64,000 bases of DNA from Rikenella microfusus (GTDB lineage Bacteria; Bacteroidota; Bacteroidia; Bacteroidales; VadinHA17). The notes beneath the pieces were generated by a model. That model worked only from the letters and a program-made list of their open reading frames with translations, ran no database searches and was not told where the DNA came from. The translations under genes and the position numbers were made by a program. The stretch is from NCBI GenBank assembly GCA_022736275.1, contig DZBJ01000003.1, positions 70,727-134,726 on the forward strand. The letters run 5' to 3'. Below, piece by piece: positions 3,959 to 54,509 of this stretch (the stretch's first letter is position 1; every line of letters starts with the position of its first letter).

Positions 3959-5770
3959 GAACATTGCCTTCCGCACGTTGGCGAAGCCCATCTTGTCAAC
4001 CTTACGGTCATAGGTCATAAGACCGTTGGTCTCGGTCTCCACATCAGTGGTCTGCGTATAAACCGAAGCGCTCAGGCCTTTCTCCTCAACCAGCTGTCTT
4101 ACAACCGTATAGAACTGTTCATATTTTCTGAGCAGGCCGGTGCTGTCACTCATTTTCTCGTAACCCCAGTTCTTCTGTTCCCAGGTGTGACCCTGCACGG
4201 GAAGCCCAAGTCCTCCGAACTCACCAAGCACAAGGGCTCTCTCTTTTTCAGCAGGAGGCGCCACCGGCTCCGGATAATGATGCACATCCATCACGTCACC
4301 TGTCCCCCGGTCAGTCCAGCCAGATGCACTGTTCACAAGGCGGGTGGTGTCATACAATGAGAAATATTCTGTCACTGCCGGAGTGTCATACTGACCCCAG
4401 CCCTCGTTGTAAATGACCCACATCACAATGGAGGGATAATTGAATTTGGTATCAATCATCCTTGTGAGCTCGGTCATGAAGATGGCAGAATCAGCAGCAC
4501 CTTTGGTTATATCCGGCTTGTCACCCCAGATATACTCATCGCCGCTGGGCATGTCCTGCCATACGAGCATACCCAGCCGGTCAGTATGGTAATAGAATCT
4601 CCTGTTCTCAACCTTGACATGCTTGCGCATCATATTGAATCCCATCTTCTTCAGCATCTCAATGTCGTACTTCATGGCTTCGTCTGAAGGCGGTGTGTAC
4701 AGTCCGTCAGGCCAGAAGCCCTGGTCGAGAGGCCCGTTCTGCCACAGAAAGCGATTGTTGAGGAAGATTCTCGTGAAGCCGTCATCCGTGATACCCAGAG
4801 ATATCTTTCGCATCCCGGCATATGAACTGACTTCGTCGGTTACGGCACCACCGGTGATGAGTCTGACATCCAGATCGTAGAGGTGGGGATTGGCGGGGCT
4901 CCAGAGCTTTGTATCTTTTATTTCGAGTGTTATCGGTGTACCAGCTATACCTGATGCTACTGATATCGTTTCACTGCCTGTCCTGACCGTCACCTCCGCC
5001 AGCGAGGGGGCCATGTCTAGGGGCGGGCACCCTTCGGGTCCGTGACAGCGCTCCTCCATCACTGTTACGGACAGTGTGCTGTTGTCAATGTCGGACACAA
5101 TGCGCAGATCGCCGATCCATGACTTCTCAACAGGCTCAATCCATACGCTCTGCCATATGCCGCTGGTGGATGTGTACCAGATGCCACCCGGGGCAGTCAC
5201 CTGCTTGCCCCTTGGCTGCGGGCCCCTGTCAGTGGGGTCAGTGACCCTGACAACCAACATGTGTTTTCTCCCTTCAGAAAGGAACGGGGTTATGTTGCAG
5301 GAAAAAGGATCATATCCTCCCTGATGGCTTATGGCGAAGTTGTCATCAACCCATACTGTCGTCTCCCAGTCGGATGCCTCAAAATTCAGCAGGAGTTGCC
5401 TCCCATCCCAGCTCCGCGGAATGGTAAACTCACGCGAATACCAGAGGGCAAGCGAGTCACTCATCCTGAGCCTGACACCTGAAAGTGCGGATTCGACAGG
5501 GTAGGGGACCAGTATTCTGCCCTGGGGAGCAGGACGATCTTCTTCCTTTCTGCAGATGGCGTAGTCCCACAATCCGTTCAGACTCATCCAGTCGCCCCTC
5601 ACCAGTCCTGGCCTCGGATACTCCGGCCACGGCGAAGAGGGGTCAATATTCTCACCCCAGACAGTAAAAAGAGGGTTATCGGCCGGTTGCCATGCCGGGC
5701 TTCTGTCGCTGGTACAAAATGTCATCACCCCTGCCAATGCAACAAGGGCCACGATTAATTTAAGCTTCAT
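3917..5770 (-). CDS. Glycoside hydrolase family 2 protein, exported
   Basis: A 617-residue GH2 enzyme (beta-galactosidase/glucuronidase/mannosidase clan). Seen: an N-terminal signal-like segment with Cys19 (the residue before it is Phe, so lipidation is doubtful), a jelly-roll sugar-binding domain (~55-215), an Ig-like domain (~215-325) and a TIM barrel. The acid/base is in 'IYNEGWGQ' (Glu456) and the nucleophile in 'LGEFGGLG' (Glu517). It probably removes a terminal beta-linked sugar in the periplasm or at the surface; the exact sugar cannot be told. Odd: the last ~13 residues (QSAVGSQQSAEGK) are the translation of a 7-bp repeat array, so the native stop appears replaced. Transcribed toward the HD-like gene. 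Confidence 0.88.
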   Translation of the reverse strand: MKLKLIVALVALAGVMTFCTSDRSPAWQPADNPLFTVWGENIDPSSPWPEYPRPGLVRGDWMSLNGLWDYAICRKEEDRPAPQGRILVPYPVESALSGVRLRMSDSLALWYSREFTIPRSWDGRQLLLNFEASDWETTVWVDDNFAISHQGGYDPFSCNITPFLSEGRKHMLVVRVTDPTDRGPQPRGKQVTAPGGIWYTSTSGIWQSVWIEPVEKSWIGDLRIVSDIDNSTLSVTVMEERCHGPEGCPPLDMAPSLAEVTVRTGSETISVASGIAGTPITLEIKDTKLWSPANPHLYDLDVRLITGGAVTDEVSSYAGMRKISLGITDDGFTRIFLNNRFLWQNGPLDQGFWPDGLYTPPSDEAMKYDIEMLKKMGFNMMRKHVKVENRRFYYHTDRLGMLVWQDMPSGDEYIWGDKPDITKGAADSAIFMTELTRMIDTKFNYPSIVMWVIYNEGWGQYDTPAVTEYFSLYDTTRLVNSASGWTDRGTGDVMDVHHYPEPVAPPAEKERALVLGEFGGLGLPVQGHTWEQKNWGYEKMSDSTGLLRKYEQFYTVVRQLVEEKGLSASVYTQTTDVETETNGLMTYDRKVDKMGFANVRKAMFQSAVGSQQSAEGK

Positions 5771-47093: not shown

Positions 47094-48863
47094 TTATTTT
47101 ATGAATGCAACAACAATCATGGCTTCGCTCTCTGAGAAATTGGTCATCGTTACGCTTTCTGCCGCTGCCGGAATCGCAAAAGTCTCAGCGTAACTTATCT
47201 TTTGTCTCAAACCGTTTCGGGTCTCCACTGTTATGCTGTGGCCCTCAACGAGATTCATTACAAGACATTTATTTTCAGTGAGAATTTCCACTGTTGTTTT
47301 GAAGCAGTACCTCACCACGTCATAAAGATGTGTTTCATGTGTCGGAAGGTGCCATAACTGCCAGTCGGGCCCCTCCTTCAGCATAACAGGTTTTGCCTTA
47401 AGCAGCCTGCTGGCCTCTTCGCCTCTCCTTTCAAAAAAGAGATTCTCCCCGGCCCGCTCAATGTTCAGGTCGCGGGGCTTCCCGTTCAGGTCCATCCGCA
47501 TCCAGTCATACATCTTGAATGTAAAGATATAGGGTGTTGAGCTTATCTCAAGAACAATGTTGTTCTTCCCCGAGCCATGTACTGTGCCGTAAGGGATCAG
47601 GAACAGATCATGCTTATCAGCCCTTTGTTTCTGAACGTACCTGTCAACATCAAGAGGCTTGCCGGTGCCGGCGCTTGTTTCCAGGGCAGTGATGAATTCA
47701 CCGGGGTCTGTCTCTTCCTGGAAACCCAGGTACACAACTGCATCATCTTTTGCATCAAGGATATAATATGATTCCTCCTGGGTAAAACTCTCCCCGAAAT
47801 GTCGCTTTGTATAATCAGGCCGCGGATGACACTGGATTGAGAGATTGCCGCCATCGAAGGTGTCGAGGAAGTCAAACCTTATAGGAAAGTCAGTTCCGAA
47901 ACGCCCATGGCAGTCGCCCAGCACAGGGTCTGCAGCAGTGTACATCAGGCAGTCGAATGATACCTCAAGCAGGAGGGAGGAGCTTTCAATCAGAAGCCCG
48001 TTTTCAGGTGAAATAAGTTCAAAGGACCATGCGTAGTTGGGAACGTCGGGATTCAGTCCCCTGATATTATCCCTGATCCATGTTCCTCCCCACGGACCGG
48101 GCTCAAACCACGGTCTGACGCGGAACATATTCCTGCTGATCGTTTGCAGTGCCTGCCTGAGCACGCTCCCTTCAATCCATACCGGTTCGTCAACTCTCTG
48201 AGCATCGACAAAAATGTCAGCAAGGGGCAAGACCTCCTGCTTGTGCCGGTTGAGCACCGGCCAGTCAATGAAGTATGAACGTTTATAGAAGGTTTTGGGA
48301 TCGGAGGGCTGCGAGAGTCCGAGATTGCTGATACTTCCTGCACGTGCACTGTATTGCTGTTCATTTTTAGGCAGATCAGCGTAGACCGTCAGCCCGTCCC
48401 AGCCTGCCAGGCTGGCTCCAGTACCCATGATAATATTTACATCGACAGCCTGATCAGGTCTGACCGCCATTAATTCCGGCATGCGGAAAAAGTCGGCCAG
48501 TGGAAGGGTGCATCTGGTTCCGAACAGCGGATCACTGCCTCCTGCATAGGGTGCGGTCAGCTCCATGATCTCCTTCTCAGGCTTCAGGTATTCATTGGTG
48601 AATATGCACCTGACTCTTTTGCCCTGACCGTTTAATGAGTCAATAATATGGTCATACAGCAGTTCCCATCGGATGCCCGTGTAACCATCAATGATTACGG
48701 TTCCTGATTCTGTAATCCGCCCGACCAGTGAGGCAAATCCGGCATGGATCAACCCTTCACCTGCGTTAAATGAGGGGTATATATCATACCCCTCCCCGGC
48801 CGGAGGTTTTCTCAGTGGCAGCGGGTACTGTCCGGAATATTTGATCTTTTCTGCCATCGTCAA
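47094..48863 (-). CDS. Class I mannose-6-phosphate isomerase with extra N-terminal domain
   Basis: A 589-residue two-domain protein. The C-terminal half (~250-589) is a cupin-fold phosphomannose isomerase: 'LSIQCHPRPDY' and 'TQEESYYILDAKDDAVVYLGF' with the zinc ligands and 'PYGTVHGSGKNNIVLEIS'. The N-terminal half (~40-230) contains 'VIIDGYTGIRWELLYDHII', in the position of a kinase P-loop but lacking its Gly-Lys-Ser, and 'IIMGTGASLAGWDGLTVYADLPKNEQQYSARAG'. This architecture occurs in Bacteroidota and Firmicutes; the N-terminal domain looks like an inactivated P-loop kinase, which is inference. The protein would feed mannose released by the GH38 enzyme into fructose-6-phosphate. Confidence 0.85.
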   Translation of the reverse strand: MTMAEKIKYSGQYPLPLRKPPAGEGYDIYPSFNAGEGLIHAGFASLVGRITESGTVIIDGYTGIRWELLYDHIIDSLNGQGKRVRCIFTNEYLKPEKEIMELTAPYAGGSDPLFGTRCTLPLADFFRMPELMAVRPDQAVDVNIIMGTGASLAGWDGLTVYADLPKNEQQYSARAGSISNLGLSQPSDPKTFYKRSYFIDWPVLNRHKQEVLPLADIFVDAQRVDEPVWIEGSVLRQALQTISRNMFRVRPWFEPGPWGGTWIRDNIRGLNPDVPNYAWSFELISPENGLLIESSSLLLEVSFDCLMYTAADPVLGDCHGRFGTDFPIRFDFLDTFDGGNLSIQCHPRPDYTKRHFGESFTQEESYYILDAKDDAVVYLGFQEETDPGEFITALETSAGTGKPLDVDRYVQKQRADKHDLFLIPYGTVHGSGKNNIVLEISSTPYIFTFKMYDWMRMDLNGKPRDLNIERAGENLFFERRGEEASRLLKAKPVMLKEGPDWQLWHLPTHETHLYDVVRYCFKTTVEILTENKCLVMNLVEGHSITVETRNGLRQKISYAETFAIPAAAESVTMTNFSESEAMIVVAFIK

Positions 48864-48880: not shown

Positions 48881-50446
48881 TTACAACCCGGATTTCTTTC
48901 TTCTTAGGTCCAGGTCATGAAAATCATAGCTGAAATCGGTCAGCGGCGAGATAGCCGCCATGGTGAAACCGGCTGCCTTCCCATCTTTGTCGAGGGTGAA
49001 TACGGCCCACGCGTCTGCATCCATCGACCTGTCATCCCATTTGACAATGAAGGTGTTGCCGGTATAGTAGAGCATGTCGCCCCGGAGCTTTGGCGACTTG
49101 ACTGATCTGAAGCGCAGCCTGCCGCTCTCTTCGGAGATAACTATATCACCGAACCAGGTGTCACCGTAGCTCCCTGCATAGGTTGAATAATCTGGTGCAG
49201 TTCCGGTTTTTGAACGGTTTGCCTCCACCCTGGCCCATATCTCATCGGTTATCTTTTTGGCCTCGGCCTGGCCTCTCTCAACATTCTCTTTGAGCATGCT
49301 TACCCAGTCATTACCTGTCACTCCCAGGTACCCGTCCTTGATGGCGTTTGTAATGGCTGTAAAGGCAGAGCCCTCCTGCTGGTTGGTGAAGACTATTATT
49401 CCCAGCTTCAGCTCCGGGATGATCAGGACCTGAGTCACTATTCCAGCCAGTCCGCCCGTGTGTGAGGCCTGCAGGTAGCCGCTGACGTCAGCGAGCCGCC
49501 AGCCAAGGCCGTAACCTGCAAAATGGCTTTTGTAGGGGCCTGGTGCCCTGACCGGAATAATGGTCTGCGGCGTCCACATCTCCCTGTGGGTTCTTTCGGA
49601 AAGCATATGAAGGCCGTTGTTACCGCCGTAACTGCCGATGTTGATCATCATTCTCACCCACTTTGTCATGTCCGCCACGCTGCTGATGATGCCTCCTGCA
49701 GGATTGAGAAGGTCGCTTTCATAGAGTGGCACCACCTGCAATACCCCGCTGACCGGCACATGGGCATCAATCATGTTCGACCTGTCCCTTGCCCTGGCAG
49801 GAGAGGCTGATGAGTTCTCCATCCCCAGGGGCTTCATGATCCGCAGTTCTACAAACTCCTCCCAGCTTTGTCCTGAGACCCTCGCAACCACCTCGCCGGC
49901 AACCAGGTAAAGCAGGTTGTCATAGTCGTACTTCGTCCGGAACGGGGTGGTCTGCTTCAGGTACCTCAGGTTATGGATGATCTCTTCTTTTGTGAATGTC
50001 GATGAGTCAGGCCAGAGCATCAGGTCGCCTGCTCCCAGTCCCATGCCGCTGCGGTGAGTCAGCAGGTCCTTTATGTTGAAATCCTCCGTGACGTAAGCAT
50101 TGTAAAGTCTGAACTCCGGGATGATGTCAATCACTTTGGTCTCCCACTTGAGTTTCCCCTCATCAACCAGAATACCGAGGGCTGCAGCCGTGAAGGCCTT
50201 GGTGTTGGAGGCAATGGCAAATAGGGTGTTCTCATCCGTCTTCTCTCCTGTGGCGATGGAACGCACTCCGTAACCCTTCAGGTGTATTACTTTGTCATCC
50301 TTAACAACGGCTACTGCGATGCCCGGTACATTGAATGCCTGCATTGTATATTCCGTGATTTTGTCGATCTCCTGTGAGGTCAGTGGCTGCGTGTAGGAGG
50401 AAAGACAGACCAGTAACAGCAGCGCCAGGGTGAGGATTTTTTTCAT
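48881..50446 (-). CDS. Serine hydrolase, beta-lactamase class C fold, with DUF3471
   Basis: A 521-residue exported hydrolase. Seen: signal peptide ('LLLVCLSSYTQP'), catalytic 'SNTKAFTAAALG' (SxxK), 'YDYDNLLYLVAGEV' (YxN) and 'HTGGLAGIVT' (HxG), then a C-terminal DUF3471 domain (~430-515: 'AGSYGDTWFGDIVISEESGRLRF'). The family includes peptidases and esterases acting on D-amino acid or ester bonds; the substrate is unknown. It is the first gene of the operon running down to 37680, 17 bases before the isomerase gene. Confidence 0.88.
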   Translation of the reverse strand: MKKILTLALLLLVCLSSYTQPLTSQEIDKITEYTMQAFNVPGIAVAVVKDDKVIHLKGYGVRSIATGEKTDENTLFAIASNTKAFTAAALGILVDEGKLKWETKVIDIIPEFRLYNAYVTEDFNIKDLLTHRSGMGLGAGDLMLWPDSSTFTKEEIIHNLRYLKQTTPFRTKYDYDNLLYLVAGEVVARVSGQSWEEFVELRIMKPLGMENSSASPARARDRSNMIDAHVPVSGVLQVVPLYESDLLNPAGGIISSVADMTKWVRMMINIGSYGGNNGLHMLSERTHREMWTPQTIIPVRAPGPYKSHFAGYGLGWRLADVSGYLQASHTGGLAGIVTQVLIIPELKLGIIVFTNQQEGSAFTAITNAIKDGYLGVTGNDWVSMLKENVERGQAEAKKITDEIWARVEANRSKTGTAPDYSTYAGSYGDTWFGDIVISEESGRLRFRSVKSPKLRGDMLYYTGNTFIVKWDDRSMDADAWAVFTLDKDGKAAGFTMAAISPLTDFSYDFHDLDLRRKKSGL

Positions 50447-50616: not shown

Positions 50617-50958
50617 TTATTCCAGTATTTTTCTCAGCCGGAGGTTATACTTATCTCCAGACCGGAGCATATAGAAAAGAAAATCTTTTTCGGGCAGAAT
50701 CTTCTGGTCGCTGCCTTCGCGCGACCAGAATGAACCGTCATAGACAAGCACATAGCTTGACCCGATCACCTCCATCGTATCGCGCTGCACAACAACAGCC
50801 GTGTTTTCATCTATTCCTATGCCCAGTAACCCGGGATGCTCACGGAGTATCGCGTACATATCAAACTGCCTGTTTCTGGCAAGCACATGCTGATCAATGA
50901 CTATATTGCTGATGTAGCCGAATCCCTCCTGGTGATCGCCCATCATAACCTGGTTATT
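50617..50958 (-). pseudogene. Cyanophycinase-family (peptidase S51) fragment, C-terminal third
   Basis: About 113 residues matching only the C-terminal part of cyanophycinase: 'MMGDHQEGFGYISNIVIDQHVLARNRQFDMYAIL', 'GLLGIGIDENTAVVV', 'VIGSSYVLVYDGSFW'. Homology to the family begins at 'NNQVMMGDH' at about 50958, with no room for the N-terminal domain that holds the catalytic serine. Immediately upstream in another frame is the end of a cytochrome oxidase subunit II remnant. So the front of the gene has been deleted. Cyanophycinase degrades the Arg-Asp polymer cyanophycin; this fragment would have no activity. Confidence 0.8.
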
Positions 50959-51470
50959 CTGAGTGTCTTGAGATATTCGGTCATGATAGCAATGTTTTCG
51001 ACTGTCAGAATATCACGGTATGACTGCATGAGATTCCTTGCATAACCAACAACAATCTCCTTGTTGGGGTCATAAATGGAACTGACAATATAGGCTTCAT
51101 CAGCGATTTCGGTCTTTTCAGTGTTACCCTCCGTGACACTCCGTTGTGATCCGTACAATCCTGCAAAGGAGGGGCCTACCAGTTTTGAACCGTCAAGAGA
51201 GTGACATCCCATGCCCACGAGGCTCGTGGCCACGAAGAATACGAAGTTGGCAATGTACATCCCCCAGCTGGTGTAATCACGCAGCCCTGTCACACCCAGT
51301 CCCTGACGGAGCTGGATGACATAGGCAAACAGACACAGGGCAAGGAGAGTGGCAAGGAAACCCATCCAAAGGATGAAACTCCTGTTGATCCTGACGTTCC
51401 TCAGGATATCGGCAGCAACGGAATCGATCTTTCGCTGCTCCCCGGGTGTATTGAAGCGGGTGTCATCCAT
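50943..51470 (-). pseudogene. Chimeric remnant: NrfD N-terminus joined to cytochrome c oxidase subunit II C-terminus
   Basis: An intact-looking frame of 175 codons made of two unrelated genes. Residues ~1-87 are the start of an NrfD/PsrC-type quinol-interacting membrane anchor ('RINRSFILWMGFLATLLALC', 'GVTGLRDYTSWGMYIANFVFFVATSLVGM'). From about residue 88 the sequence becomes the cytochrome c domain of subunit II: 'GCHSLDGSKLVGPSFAGLYGSQ', 'IVVGYARNLMQSYRDIL' and 'IAIMTEYLKTL'. The junction is at ~51209, cutting the heme motif so the first Cys of CxxCH is absent. Neither protein could work. It follows the 4Fe-4S remnant by 12 bases in what was probably a respiratory operon. Confidence 0.8.
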
Positions 51471-51482
51471 TTCGGTGCTTTT

Positions 51483-51896
51483 TTATGCTTTGTCTTCCAA
51501 GTATTCCCGTTTCTCATCCTCCTCGAATTCGAAGAGCCTGTTCCTGGAGGCAGGTAGTATACCCTCGGTTTGGTGCCAAGCTCGGGCATGAGCCTGTATG
51601 CACCTCTCATTATCAATCAGTACTATCCCGTCCTGCCTCTTGTATGTGGCATCAACGGGGCAGACTGAGACACACGGAGGGTTGTCGCAGTGCTGGCAGG
51701 GTTTGGGCATGTAGTAGGCAGGAGTATTGACTGATTCCTGCATCACCAGGGTATTGATATGATACTCATAAGGCCTGAGGTGATGGGCGCTCTGGCACGC
51801 TTCAACACACTTCCTGGCATTGCGGCATTTTGACAGATCGATCACCATGACCCATCTCCGGCCGCTGATGCCCTCCCTGCCCCTCGACTGAAGCAT
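51483..51896 (-). pseudogene. 4Fe-4S dicluster protein remnant (NrfC/HybA type), internally deleted
   Basis: Begins inside the protein ('GREGISGRRWVMVIDLSKCRNARKCVEACQSAHH') and keeps 'PKPCQHCDNPPCVSVCPVDATYKRQDGIVLIDNERCI'. The family continues with the next cysteine cluster, but here the frame jumps near 51605. In a second frame (51616 down) comes the family's C-terminal 'AYRLMPELGTKPRVYYLPP', and the original frame then resumes with 'RNRLFEFEEDEKREYLEDKA' to the stop at 51483. At the jump, 'GCATA' could belong to either side, a micro-homology typical of a deletion. It is an electron-transfer subunit for a molybdoenzyme or NrfD complex, now inactive. Confidence 0.78.
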
Positions 51897-51898
51897 CT

Positions 51899-52042
51899 TC
51901 AGGTCATGCCTTCAATTGAGAGTTCAATGGTTGCCGTCGCAGCAGGTGTCTCAGTCGCTTTCTGGCTTTTGCCGCCACCGCATGAAACTGATAACATCAT
52001 AATGCTCAGAAGAATACATGAGAATAATTTTGATCTTGTCAT
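51899..52042 (-). pseudogene. Truncated lipoprotein with start of a heavy-metal-associated domain
   Basis: A 47-codon frame from ATG at 52042: lipoprotein signal with 'SVSC' lipobox, a short linker 'GGGKSQKATETPAATA', then 'TIELSIEGMT' and a TGA. HMA (MerP-like) domains run 'GMTCxxC'; here the codon after GMT reads TGA with the next bases belonging to the 4Fe-4S gene, so the gene is cut where its metal-binding cysteines should follow. Too short for automatic callers. It is the upstream end of the deletion mosaic. Confidence 0.7.
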
Positions 52043-52406
52043 ATCAATTCAGGTTAGGTTAGTACTACGTTAAATCAGGCTCTTAAATAAAATATTATAC
52101 CAACCATAAACAATACAATAAATATCAATTCACAGTCGGAAATTACTCTCTCGGATCAGATATGGTCAGTCGTAATTTTTTCTCATTCTTCATTAAAACT
52201 TCATAATAGACTTATTAATTTCCCCATCCTAAATAGGCGAAATTAATTTCTTTCTTTCCATAAGTCCGTTTTAATGCAACGAAGACTGCCGGCACCCCAA
52301 AATCCGGCAGTCTTCTTTTTTCTCTGGCTGATTTATTTGTCAAATCCGGACCAGTATCCGGCTGATAAAAGTACCGGCATTATGGCATCTCAGACAGGAA
52401 GGGATG
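52043..52406. other. 364-base intergenic region, AT-rich, no gene
   Basis: Lies between the truncated lipoprotein and the convergent-side end of the prolyl oligopeptidase gene. It is AT-rich, with no open frame of interest and no tRNA-like fold that I can see. The only clear element is the plus-strand terminator at 52281-52321. Confidence 0.6.
52281..52321 (+). terminator. Strong intrinsic terminator with no plus-strand gene before it
   Basis: Arms GAAGACTGCCGG (52281-52292) and CCGGCAGTCTTC (52304-52315) are exact complements with an 11-base loop, followed by six T on the plus strand. On the minus strand the T-run is on the wrong side. No plus-strand gene precedes it, so it may end a small RNA or a lost gene. 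Confidence 0.75.
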
Positions 52407-54509
52407 CTACTCCTTTTTCATCAGCATCATGTTAAGGTAGGTGTAAATCAGGGCCCGCATCTCTGCCTCCTGCGAATTGGTTGATGATGCCCCGTGACCG
52501 CCTTCTATTGTCTCATGATAGTAAAGCGGGTGCTTCATATCAATCATCTTTGCTGCCATCTTGCGGGCATGCCCCGGGTGAACCCTGTCATCGCGTGTTG
52601 AGGTGATAAACAGCGGGGTTGGATACTTCGCCTCTTTCTTTACATTCTGATACGGTGAGTATTTGCTGATGAATTCCCAGTCCTCCGGCACATCTGGATT
52701 TCCGTATTCATCCATCCAACTGGCACCGGCCAGCATTTTATTGTACCTCTTCATGTCAAGCAGGGGGGCTCCGATGACCACCGCATTCCAGATATCAGGC
52801 CTCTGCGTCATTGCAACTCCCGCAAGGAGGCCGCCGTTGCTCCATCCGTAGAAACCCATGCGCTCAGGAGTGGTGATGTTCCGGCTCATAAGGTCTTCAG
52901 CCACCGCAAACAGATCATCATAGGCATTCTGTCTTTTTTCCCTCAGCGCCGAATGATGCCATGCAGGACCAAACTCGCCGCCACCGCGTATGTTGGCAAT
53001 AACATAAACACCTCCTTTTTCAATCCAGCCTATGCCAGTCAGGGAACTGTAACCGGGTCGGGTGGGACTGTTGAAACCCCCATAACCGTAGACAAGGGTG
53101 GGATTGCTGCCGTCAAGCGGCATGCCGGCCGGATGAACGATAAAGTACGGGATCTTTGTGCCGTCCTTTGAGATTGCCTCATACTGATCTACCTTAACCC
53201 CTGAGGCATCAAAGTAATCCTTCTGCTTCCTGATGGCTTTGATTTCCTTGCCGTCACCGTAATAGAGGGTTGTGGGAGTAACGGGATTGCTGAAGGTGAA
53301 GAAATACTCGTTTGACCTGTCATCGGCTCCAGCCAGGTCCACGGTGCCGAACCCCGGAACATCAACCGGTTCTGCTGACCAGTTGCCGCCTGCGTTGCGG
53401 TAGATGGTAAGCCTGCCCTGTACATTTGCCATTGTGGCTATCACTATGAAATCACGGGTCGTCATCACACCTGCAAAGCTTTCCCTCTCCCCTGGTACAT
53501 AGATGGTCTGCACAACTTGCTCGCCTTCAAGAAAAGAGGGAAGGTCATAACTGACCAGTGTACCCTTCACAAAAGTCTCACCGTTGACACTCCAGTCTGA
53601 TTGCAGGTAAAGAAGCATCTTCTCGCCGAACATGCCGCTTATCTCAACATCCTTCTGGATCTCAAGCATCTTCATGCCATCAGGGGTGAGCATATACATT
53701 GTCGACTCATAAAAACCCCTGCTCTCATTCAGAAATACATACTGTTTTCCGTTGACCTCGCTGCCACTTACAAATATTCCCATGTTGGTAGTGTCAGTCT
53801 GTTGGATTGTCACTGCTGATGAGGGATACTCCCCTCTGTTCCAGAGTTTAGCCACGGCCGGGTACCCCGATGAGGTCATTGTGCCGCCACCGTAATTGGT
53901 AGCGACAAGAATCCGGTTAGCGTCAACCCACGCAGCGCTGCCCTTGCTCTCGGCAACGGAAAAGCCCCCTTTAACGAACTTCTTTTCAACAGCGTCAAAT
54001 TCCCTTATAACCGCCTCATCCTTGCCGCCATCAGAGAGGCGGAGCAGACAGTACCGGTTCTCAGGACCAAGCCATGTGGCTCCGCCGTAAACCCACTTCC
54101 TTCCCTCTTCCGCCGATAAAACATCAAGGTCAAGCACCGTCTCCCAGTTCTCTTTCCCTGTAAGGTAATCCTTCTTCGGCATGCGCCTCCAGAGACCTCT
54201 TTCATTCTTCTCATCCTGCCAGAGGTTATAGCTCATGTCACCGACAACTCCCGGATAAATTAACTTCTCCCTGTCATTCAGTACTTCAAGGAATCTCACG
54301 CGAAGCTCAGTGTATACCGGAAGGGTGGTCAGGGCATCGTCAGAGAGCCTGTTCTGTGCACGGGCCCAGTCGAGGGCCTTCTCGTCCTGAACCTCCTCCA
54401 GCCAGAGGAAGGGATCGTCACCAACTGAAGTTTTTGTTTTCTTTTCGCCGCAACCCGGCAAAATCAATAGTAGCATAATCAACGTAAGAAGGTTAGTTAA
54501 TTGTTTCAT
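52407..54509 (-). CDS. Prolyl oligopeptidase family serine peptidase (S9A)
   Basis: A 700-residue S9 peptidase. Seen: signal peptide with Cys20 lipobox ('LLILPGC'), an N-terminal beta-propeller (~75-420) and a C-terminal alpha/beta hydrolase with the nucleophile Ser in 'YGWSNGGLLAGVAM', Asp in 'TSTRDDRVHPGHA' and His in 'IEGGHGASS'. It cleaves short peptides after proline, probably from the periplasmic face of a membrane. It overlaps the next gene upstream by 17 bases. Confidence 0.92.
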   Translation of the reverse strand: MKQLTNLLTLIMLLLILPGCGEKKTKTSVGDDPFLWLEEVQDEKALDWARAQNRLSDDALTTLPVYTELRVRFLEVLNDREKLIYPGVVGDMSYNLWQDEKNERGLWRRMPKKDYLTGKENWETVLDLDVLSAEEGRKWVYGGATWLGPENRYCLLRLSDGGKDEAVIREFDAVEKKFVKGGFSVAESKGSAAWVDANRILVATNYGGGTMTSSGYPAVAKLWNRGEYPSSAVTIQQTDTTNMGIFVSGSEVNGKQYVFLNESRGFYESTMYMLTPDGMKMLEIQKDVEISGMFGEKMLLYLQSDWSVNGETFVKGTLVSYDLPSFLEGEQVVQTIYVPGERESFAGVMTTRDFIVIATMANVQGRLTIYRNAGGNWSAEPVDVPGFGTVDLAGADDRSNEYFFTFSNPVTPTTLYYGDGKEIKAIRKQKDYFDASGVKVDQYEAISKDGTKIPYFIVHPAGMPLDGSNPTLVYGYGGFNSPTRPGYSSLTGIGWIEKGGVYVIANIRGGGEFGPAWHHSALREKRQNAYDDLFAVAEDLMSRNITTPERMGFYGWSNGGLLAGVAMTQRPDIWNAVVIGAPLLDMKRYNKMLAGASWMDEYGNPDVPEDWEFISKYSPYQNVKKEAKYPTPLFITSTRDDRVHPGHARKMAAKMIDMKHPLYYHETIEGGHGASSTNSQEAEMRALIYTYLNMMLMKKE

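Follow-up and report, generated by a model that had tools for sequence, protein, structure and literature searches.

Remnants at the locus

The window, a stretch of 64,000 nucleotides, spans positions 70727-134726 of contig C95 in genome assembly G000 (3.15 Mb, 187 contigs, 96% complete). It was compared with 21 other congeneric genomes, giving a set of 22 with the window genome, several of which are 61-79% complete. The genus belongs to the uncultured Bacteroidales and is apparently free-living.

Between an intact prolyl oligopeptidase gene and an intact serine hydrolase gene (Table 1) is a 1.4-kb stretch, 50617-52042, with four open frames on its minus strand, of 47, 137, 175 and 109 codons. 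By profile searches, these are a lipoprotein, a relative of the 4Fe-4S proteins DsrO and TtrB, the N-terminus of an NrfD/DsrP protein running into a cytochrome c tail, and the C-terminus of a cyanophycinase. A sequence-only reading of this DNA had claimed the remnants of five genes here, in this order on the minus strand, and all five were found by tblastn and blastn against intact relatives. The DNA searches returned the same blocks as tblastn, with E-values of about 1e-4 to 1e-124 depending on the block and the relative, thus the matches are not chance resemblance.

The lipoprotein, which in intact relatives contains an HMA domain (PF00403), stops at the GMT of that domain as had been described; it ends at EGMT because a TGA is created by junction 1. 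The 4Fe-4S protein was thought to be missing its middle. The middle is indeed gone, but so are the first 82 residues, and the last 34 or so are out of frame. This remnant is without its N-terminal signal region and its later cysteine motifs, so that most of the Fe-S cysteines are gone. The DNA match of its out-of-frame part runs uninterrupted into the start of NrfD. The NrfD anchor is cut early, as claimed, with about two helices retained relative to the 447-aa family member. The next piece is likewise what it was taken for, the C-terminal cytochrome c part of oxidase subunit II (CoxB), although it reads GMGCHSLDG against GCLACHSLDG in the intact locus L027, the CXXCH haem attachment motif having been cut down to CH. 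The last remnant belongs to cyanophycinase (TIGR02069, peptidase family S51), of which it is the C-terminal 40% rather than the C-terminal third previously suggested. It starts past the GGSSAG segment with the nucleophile serine, a segment that is present in G003, and is not a working enzyme.

Table 1. Genes, remnants and deletion junctions at the operon site (window coordinates)
Feature	Position	Strand	Basis
Serine hydrolase (beta-lactamase family), right flank, intact	48881..50446	-	PF00144, PF11954
Remnant 5: cyanophycinase, C-terminal about 40%	50617..50949	-	TIGR02069 152-228/250, 62 bits; tblastn aa 171-289/290
Junction 4: about 2975 bp missing relative to G011	50961..50969	-	alignment to G011
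Remnant 4: CoxB C-terminal cytochrome c region, aa 221-304/315	50962..51209	-	blastn, tblastn
Junction 3: 6439 bp missing; in frame	51210..51220	-	alignment to intact relatives
Remnant 3: NrfD-family membrane subunit, N-terminal about 85-94 aa of 447 (tblastn aa 1-94)	51220..51470	-	profile search, blastn, tblastn
Remnant 2b: C-terminal part of 4Fe-4S gene, outside original frame	51483..51597	-	tblastn aa 286-305 in other frame
Junction 2: 308 bp missing, frameshifting; 0-2 bp homology	51598..51602	-	alignment to intact relatives
Remnant 2a: 4Fe-4S protein (DsrO/TtrB-like), aa 83-185 of 325, in frame	51598..51899	-	profile search, blastn, tblastn
Remnant 1: HMA-domain lipoprotein N-terminus, aa 1-50/117	51899..52042	-	tblastn to L027 HMA protein
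Junction 1: 498 bp missing; 7-bp direct repeat TGACCTG	51900..51912	-	alignment to intact relatives
Prolyl oligopeptidase (S9), left flank, intact	52407..54509	-	PF00326/PF02897

The serine hydrolase has an ortholog at the locus in 19 of the 22 genomes. Adjoining it is a conserved-looking gene of 589 aa (47094-48863, minus strand) that has no matches in Pfam or NCBIfam. Towards the oligopeptidase gene, at 52243-52315 on the minus strand, a GC-rich 12-bp hairpin with compensatory changes is followed by the 28-nt segment GCATTAAAACGGACTTATGGAAAGAAAG. This segment is nearly invariant in 16 of the 22 genomes, present in single copy in each, and always in the neighbourhood of the operon site. The hairpin and segment persist where the operon, or even the oligopeptidase gene, has been lost. 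No RNA families were found in an Rfam scan of the window; the hairpin and segment are possibly a small RNA or a regulatory element. In two genomes, G003 (L033:5875-8639) and G002, a two-gene insert encoding a B12-binding-like protein and a member of the octopine dehydrogenase family separates the oligopeptidase gene from the operon site, and in G018 (L036 about 5320-5610) this insert has itself shrunk by internal deletion.

The intact operon in related genomes

Six congeners have an intact operon in the same interval, between the same flanks. It is on one contig in G010, G011 and G016 and split between contigs in G004, G009 and G015. The order of its genes is HMA lipoprotein, 4Fe-4S protein (325 aa), NrfD (447), cytochrome c (314), a DoxX-like membrane protein (129; named by eye, with no Pfam matches), SCO (260), CoxA (550), CoxC (204), CoxD (94), CoxB with a C-terminal cytochrome c (315), and UbiA/CtaB (about 290-300). 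A cyanophycinase gene closes the operon in G009, G011 and G016, though not in G010, and the prolyl oligopeptidase gene adjoins it in G009, G010, G011, G015 and G016. The operon order of Fe-S protein, NrfD and CoxB that had been guessed from the remnants is therefore real in the congeners, where seven further genes separate NrfD from the CoxB tail.

The oxidase of the relatives is of the caa3 type, with CoxA matching TIGR02891 (665 bits), CoxB matching TIGR02866 (161 bits) as well as PF00116 and PF00034, and CoxC matching PF00510. The Fe-S and NrfD proteins of the intact relative score best as DsrO-like and DsrP-like, but under the cut-offs for the DsrMKJOP complex (186 of 200 bits for DsrO and 124 of 350 bits for DsrP). 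Judged from its predicted products, the ancestral operon is a quinol-to-oxygen electron route, made up of an Fe-S/NrfD module predicted to oxidise quinol, a mono-haem cytochrome c and the caa3-type oxidase. SCO and the HMA protein are its predicted copper-handling proteins and UbiA/CtaB its predicted haem O synthase. An Fe-S and NrfD-family quinol module encoded beside cytochrome c and a haem-copper oxidase is also seen in operons that combine alternative complex III (ActABCDEF; PMC8076601) with an oxidase. Unlike that complex, the intact relative's operon has a single NrfD and a single Fe-S protein; no pentahaem ActA, second NrfD (ActF) or multihaem protein was found among its open reading frames.

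The operon of G015 is otherwise intact, and in its 4Fe-4S gene (L031 about 3190-3180, minus strand) CIGCRFC has become YLVCRLC, through changes clustered within about 12 nt. This removes a cluster cysteine, and decay of the operon may be beginning there.

Deletion junctions

Comparison with the respiratory operon of the nearest relatives, the check proposed along with the sequence-only reading, places all of the window blocks collinear with the intact copy at the same locus, on one strand and with four deletions between them. By blastn, every intact relative gives the same blocks. This direct comparison bears out the proposal that a once-intact respiratory region was hit by repeated internal deletions. 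Junction endpoints were determined by putting both parent sequences in register with the window, and deletion lengths are those measured in the intact relatives; the lengths at junctions 1 and 2 are identical against nearly all of these. Junction 3 removed the remainder of NrfD, the genes for cytochrome c, the DoxX-like protein, SCO, CoxA, CoxC and CoxD, and most of CoxB. Junction 4 removed the end of CoxB, UbiA/CtaB and the N-terminal part of cyanophycinase. When 9 kb of the intact operon was searched against the whole window genome, only the four blocks from the Fe-S gene to CoxB were found, and the deleted parts are nowhere else in it.

For the repeat at junction 1, the null P is about 0.002 with three relatives and 0.04 with G015. 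The homology at junction 3 is 2 bp; alternatively, GGCATG occurs on either side and a 5-nt filler comes after it. Junction 4 is near a shared (A)GACAC (5-6 bp), with the best-fitting crossover just past that repeat. Microhomology was considered as a general cause of all of the joins and was not upheld, being statistically clear at one and possible at another.

The joins had been said to leave open frames. Four such frames exist, but they are without meaning: the frame is kept at one of the four joins only, that between NrfD and CoxB, and is lost within the Fe-S gene and at the HMA/Fe-S and CoxB/cyanophycinase joins. This is the chance expectation, and the open frames thus give no indication of selection.

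Nature and age of the relic

The 1.4-kb stretch is very probably a dead relic of a cytochrome c oxidase operon and the adjoining cyanophycinase gene, made by at least four separate deletions. An intact ortholog is present at the same locus in close relatives. Coding capacity has been lost, with the CXXCH, the GGSSAG serine, most of the Fe-S cysteines and the reading frame gone, which marks the stretch as a relic. There is no functional copy elsewhere in the window genome, where PF00115 finds only a different gene of the oxidase superfamily. Deletions of 308 bp to 6.4 kb would have taken away about 10 kb while leaving both flanking genes intact. They would have arisen successively, through illegitimate recombination or slippage during replication, processes suggested by one clear 7-bp repeat.

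The ratio of amino-acid to silent changes in the Fe-S gene is 0.14-0.24 between the window and intact orthologs, and 0.09-0.39 among the intact orthologs. For NrfD these ranges are 0.50-0.75 and 0.24-0.93. Across the four genes, the changes unique to the window genome at otherwise invariant codons are 2 amino-acid and 10 silent, much as in the intact genomes. This lack of an excess of amino-acid changes suggests that the deletions are very recent or, less likely, that the assembly is at fault. The inactivation appears to be recent relative to the split from G015 and G003, and a rough estimate from the codon counts puts the neutral divergence since then below about 2%. Counting against a relic, the purifying-type ratios require all four deletions to be recent, and an assembly fault would look alike; the statistically clear microhomology at only one junction counts against it as well.

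In the case of an assembly artefact, the cell would still have the whole operon, and small contigs from a region of poor coverage would have been ordered and joined with the gaps collapsed. Remnants that are conserved like functional genes, and whose order and orientation match the intact operon, would be expected from this. However, just 0-7 bp are common at the joins, which is under any assembler's word length, and at one of them there seems to be a 5-nt filler. Of the missing sequence, roughly 10 kb, nothing is found in a 96%-complete genome, the surrounding 10 kb is collinear with G015 without gaps, and the independent assemblies of G003 and G018 have similar partial decay at the locus. 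Such an artefact is therefore improbable.

It is less probable still that a single complex event, template switching or the repair of several breaks, produced the four deletions together. The negligible point decay makes all four recent, and the short homology and filler bases at the joins suit template switching, but nothing observed requires simultaneity. By our own estimate, with neutral divergence of less than about 2%, the ancestral stretch of ~11 kb could have gathered as many as about 200 substitutions along with the four deletions, a ratio that is not unusual, and decay in the congeners is clearly stepwise in extent. The least credible alternative, to which we give almost no weight, is that the mosaic is a new functional unit, a 175-aa NrfD-CoxB fusion and a shortened Fe-S protein under selection: both frames are open with purifying-type substitution ratios, but the fusion has no CXXCH and has lost all but about two NrfD helices, the Fe-S protein ends out of frame, open frames are as frequent as chance allows, and no other genome has the fusion. 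A search of GTDB genomes for an NrfD-CoxB fusion found none; a match in L097 that seemed to pass the join is an ordinary NrfD.

Parallel losses in the genus

The relic in the window is not the only one. The locus has been lost independently in other species, having decayed with different endpoints in G003, G018, G001, G014, G017 and G002, of which the first five are bridged on one contig. Bridged loci are independent of genome completeness, whereas absence of the operon from the genomes that are 61-79% complete is weak evidence. G003 has lost about 111 bp of the Fe-S gene, in frame and at a repeat of about 8-10 bp. Its NrfD is broken and runs into a truncated cytochrome c, which is joined in turn to the end of CoxB; UbiA is frameshifted, and cyanophycinase is intact. 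Only a short piece of the Fe-S gene (matching aa 183-211) is left in G018, and only cyanophycinase in G001. About 310 bp remains between the flanks in G017 and 43 bp in G014. The locus is empty in G002, as seen on two contigs.

A species tree was made with IQ-TREE from RpoB, CydA and the two flank proteins, with G005 left out; it was used instead of a FastTree tree that re-rooted badly. Decayed species stand beside intact ones, G017 with G011 (support 100) and G014 with G010 (86). The window genome, G003 and G015 form a clade with support of 99, with the branching inside it at 50 only. Under losses-only parsimony, the loci bridged on one contig require six losses and the genus as a whole ten; if gain and loss are both free, the numbers of changes are five and six, respectively. 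The operon may also have been regained repeatedly, by recombination into the same site: the tree of the Fe-S and NrfD genes moves G003 to the group of G009, G010 and G011, unlike the species tree. Given this discordant placement, recombination may blur the loss count.

G005 at first seemed the nearest sister of the window genome, based on a 357-aa piece of rpoB with 97% DNA identity, and was dropped since its operon is of the kind seen in G016 and shares only about 70% identity with the sequence in the window. This RpoB contig (G005:C235, L180), 97% identical to that of the window genome in a MAG whose operon groups with G016, is probably a binning error.

It is conceivable, though on balance doubtful, that the cytochrome c oxidase locus is undergoing fast parallel dismantling in this genus, perhaps through unusually deletion-prone repair. 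Deletions would then outpace point mutation so far that sister species are found side by side in intact, half-deleted and erased states.

Remaining oxidases

The window genome has cytochrome bd, as do 18 of the 21 others, in intact or partial form. A caa3-type CoxA is absent from every decayed genome. Adaptation to anaerobic life had been offered as a possible cause of the deletions, and is supported only in part. The cytochrome c oxidase has indeed been lost, but cytochrome bd and a second, divergent gene of the haem-copper oxidase superfamily have been kept. The likeliest reading is low-oxygen life in which the bd oxidase would suffice, not strict anaerobiosis. The cytochrome c oxidase would first have become dispensable under such conditions, served by cytochrome bd, and the deletions would have come after.

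The divergent gene is the only COX1 gene of the window genome, and is part of a two-gene unit beside an Rrf2-type regulator (L134:4970-7185, G000:C110). The unit is possibly a nitric oxide reductase-like enzyme, and its substrate may be oxygen or nitric oxide.

Gene decay and its significance

Reductive genome evolution in which pseudogenes decay by deletion has been described in Sodalis glossinidius (PMC3091646) and in a fish lineage of Streptococcus agalactiae (PMC3637634). As far as the available portions of those reports go, the decay is alike in that dispensable genes are lost piecemeal, flanks are retained, and fragments keep the signatures of their families. On the same basis, the present case differs in concerning an apparently free-living, uncultured genus of Bacteroidales and not a host-restricted lineage, and in that one operon has been lost repeatedly while its intact state survives in sister species. 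A literature search found general papers on reductive evolution and none on this operon locus. The process is ordinary gene decay by deletion; what stands out is that a single genus shows this locus at several stages of its loss. What recurs here is the reductive loss of an operon for cytochrome c oxidase, not a new system.

The locus carries a warning for annotation, as mechanical calling of open reading frames would list a '4Fe-4S protein', a 'cytochrome c' and a 'cyanophycinase' here, none of which is a working gene. It is also a natural experiment, in which one locus in one genus runs from intact to fully erased states with the endpoints identified. Such a series can be used to date and order the loss of high-oxygen respiration, to test the use of short repeats by deletions, and to show that the retention of cytochrome bd with loss of cytochrome c oxidase recurs.
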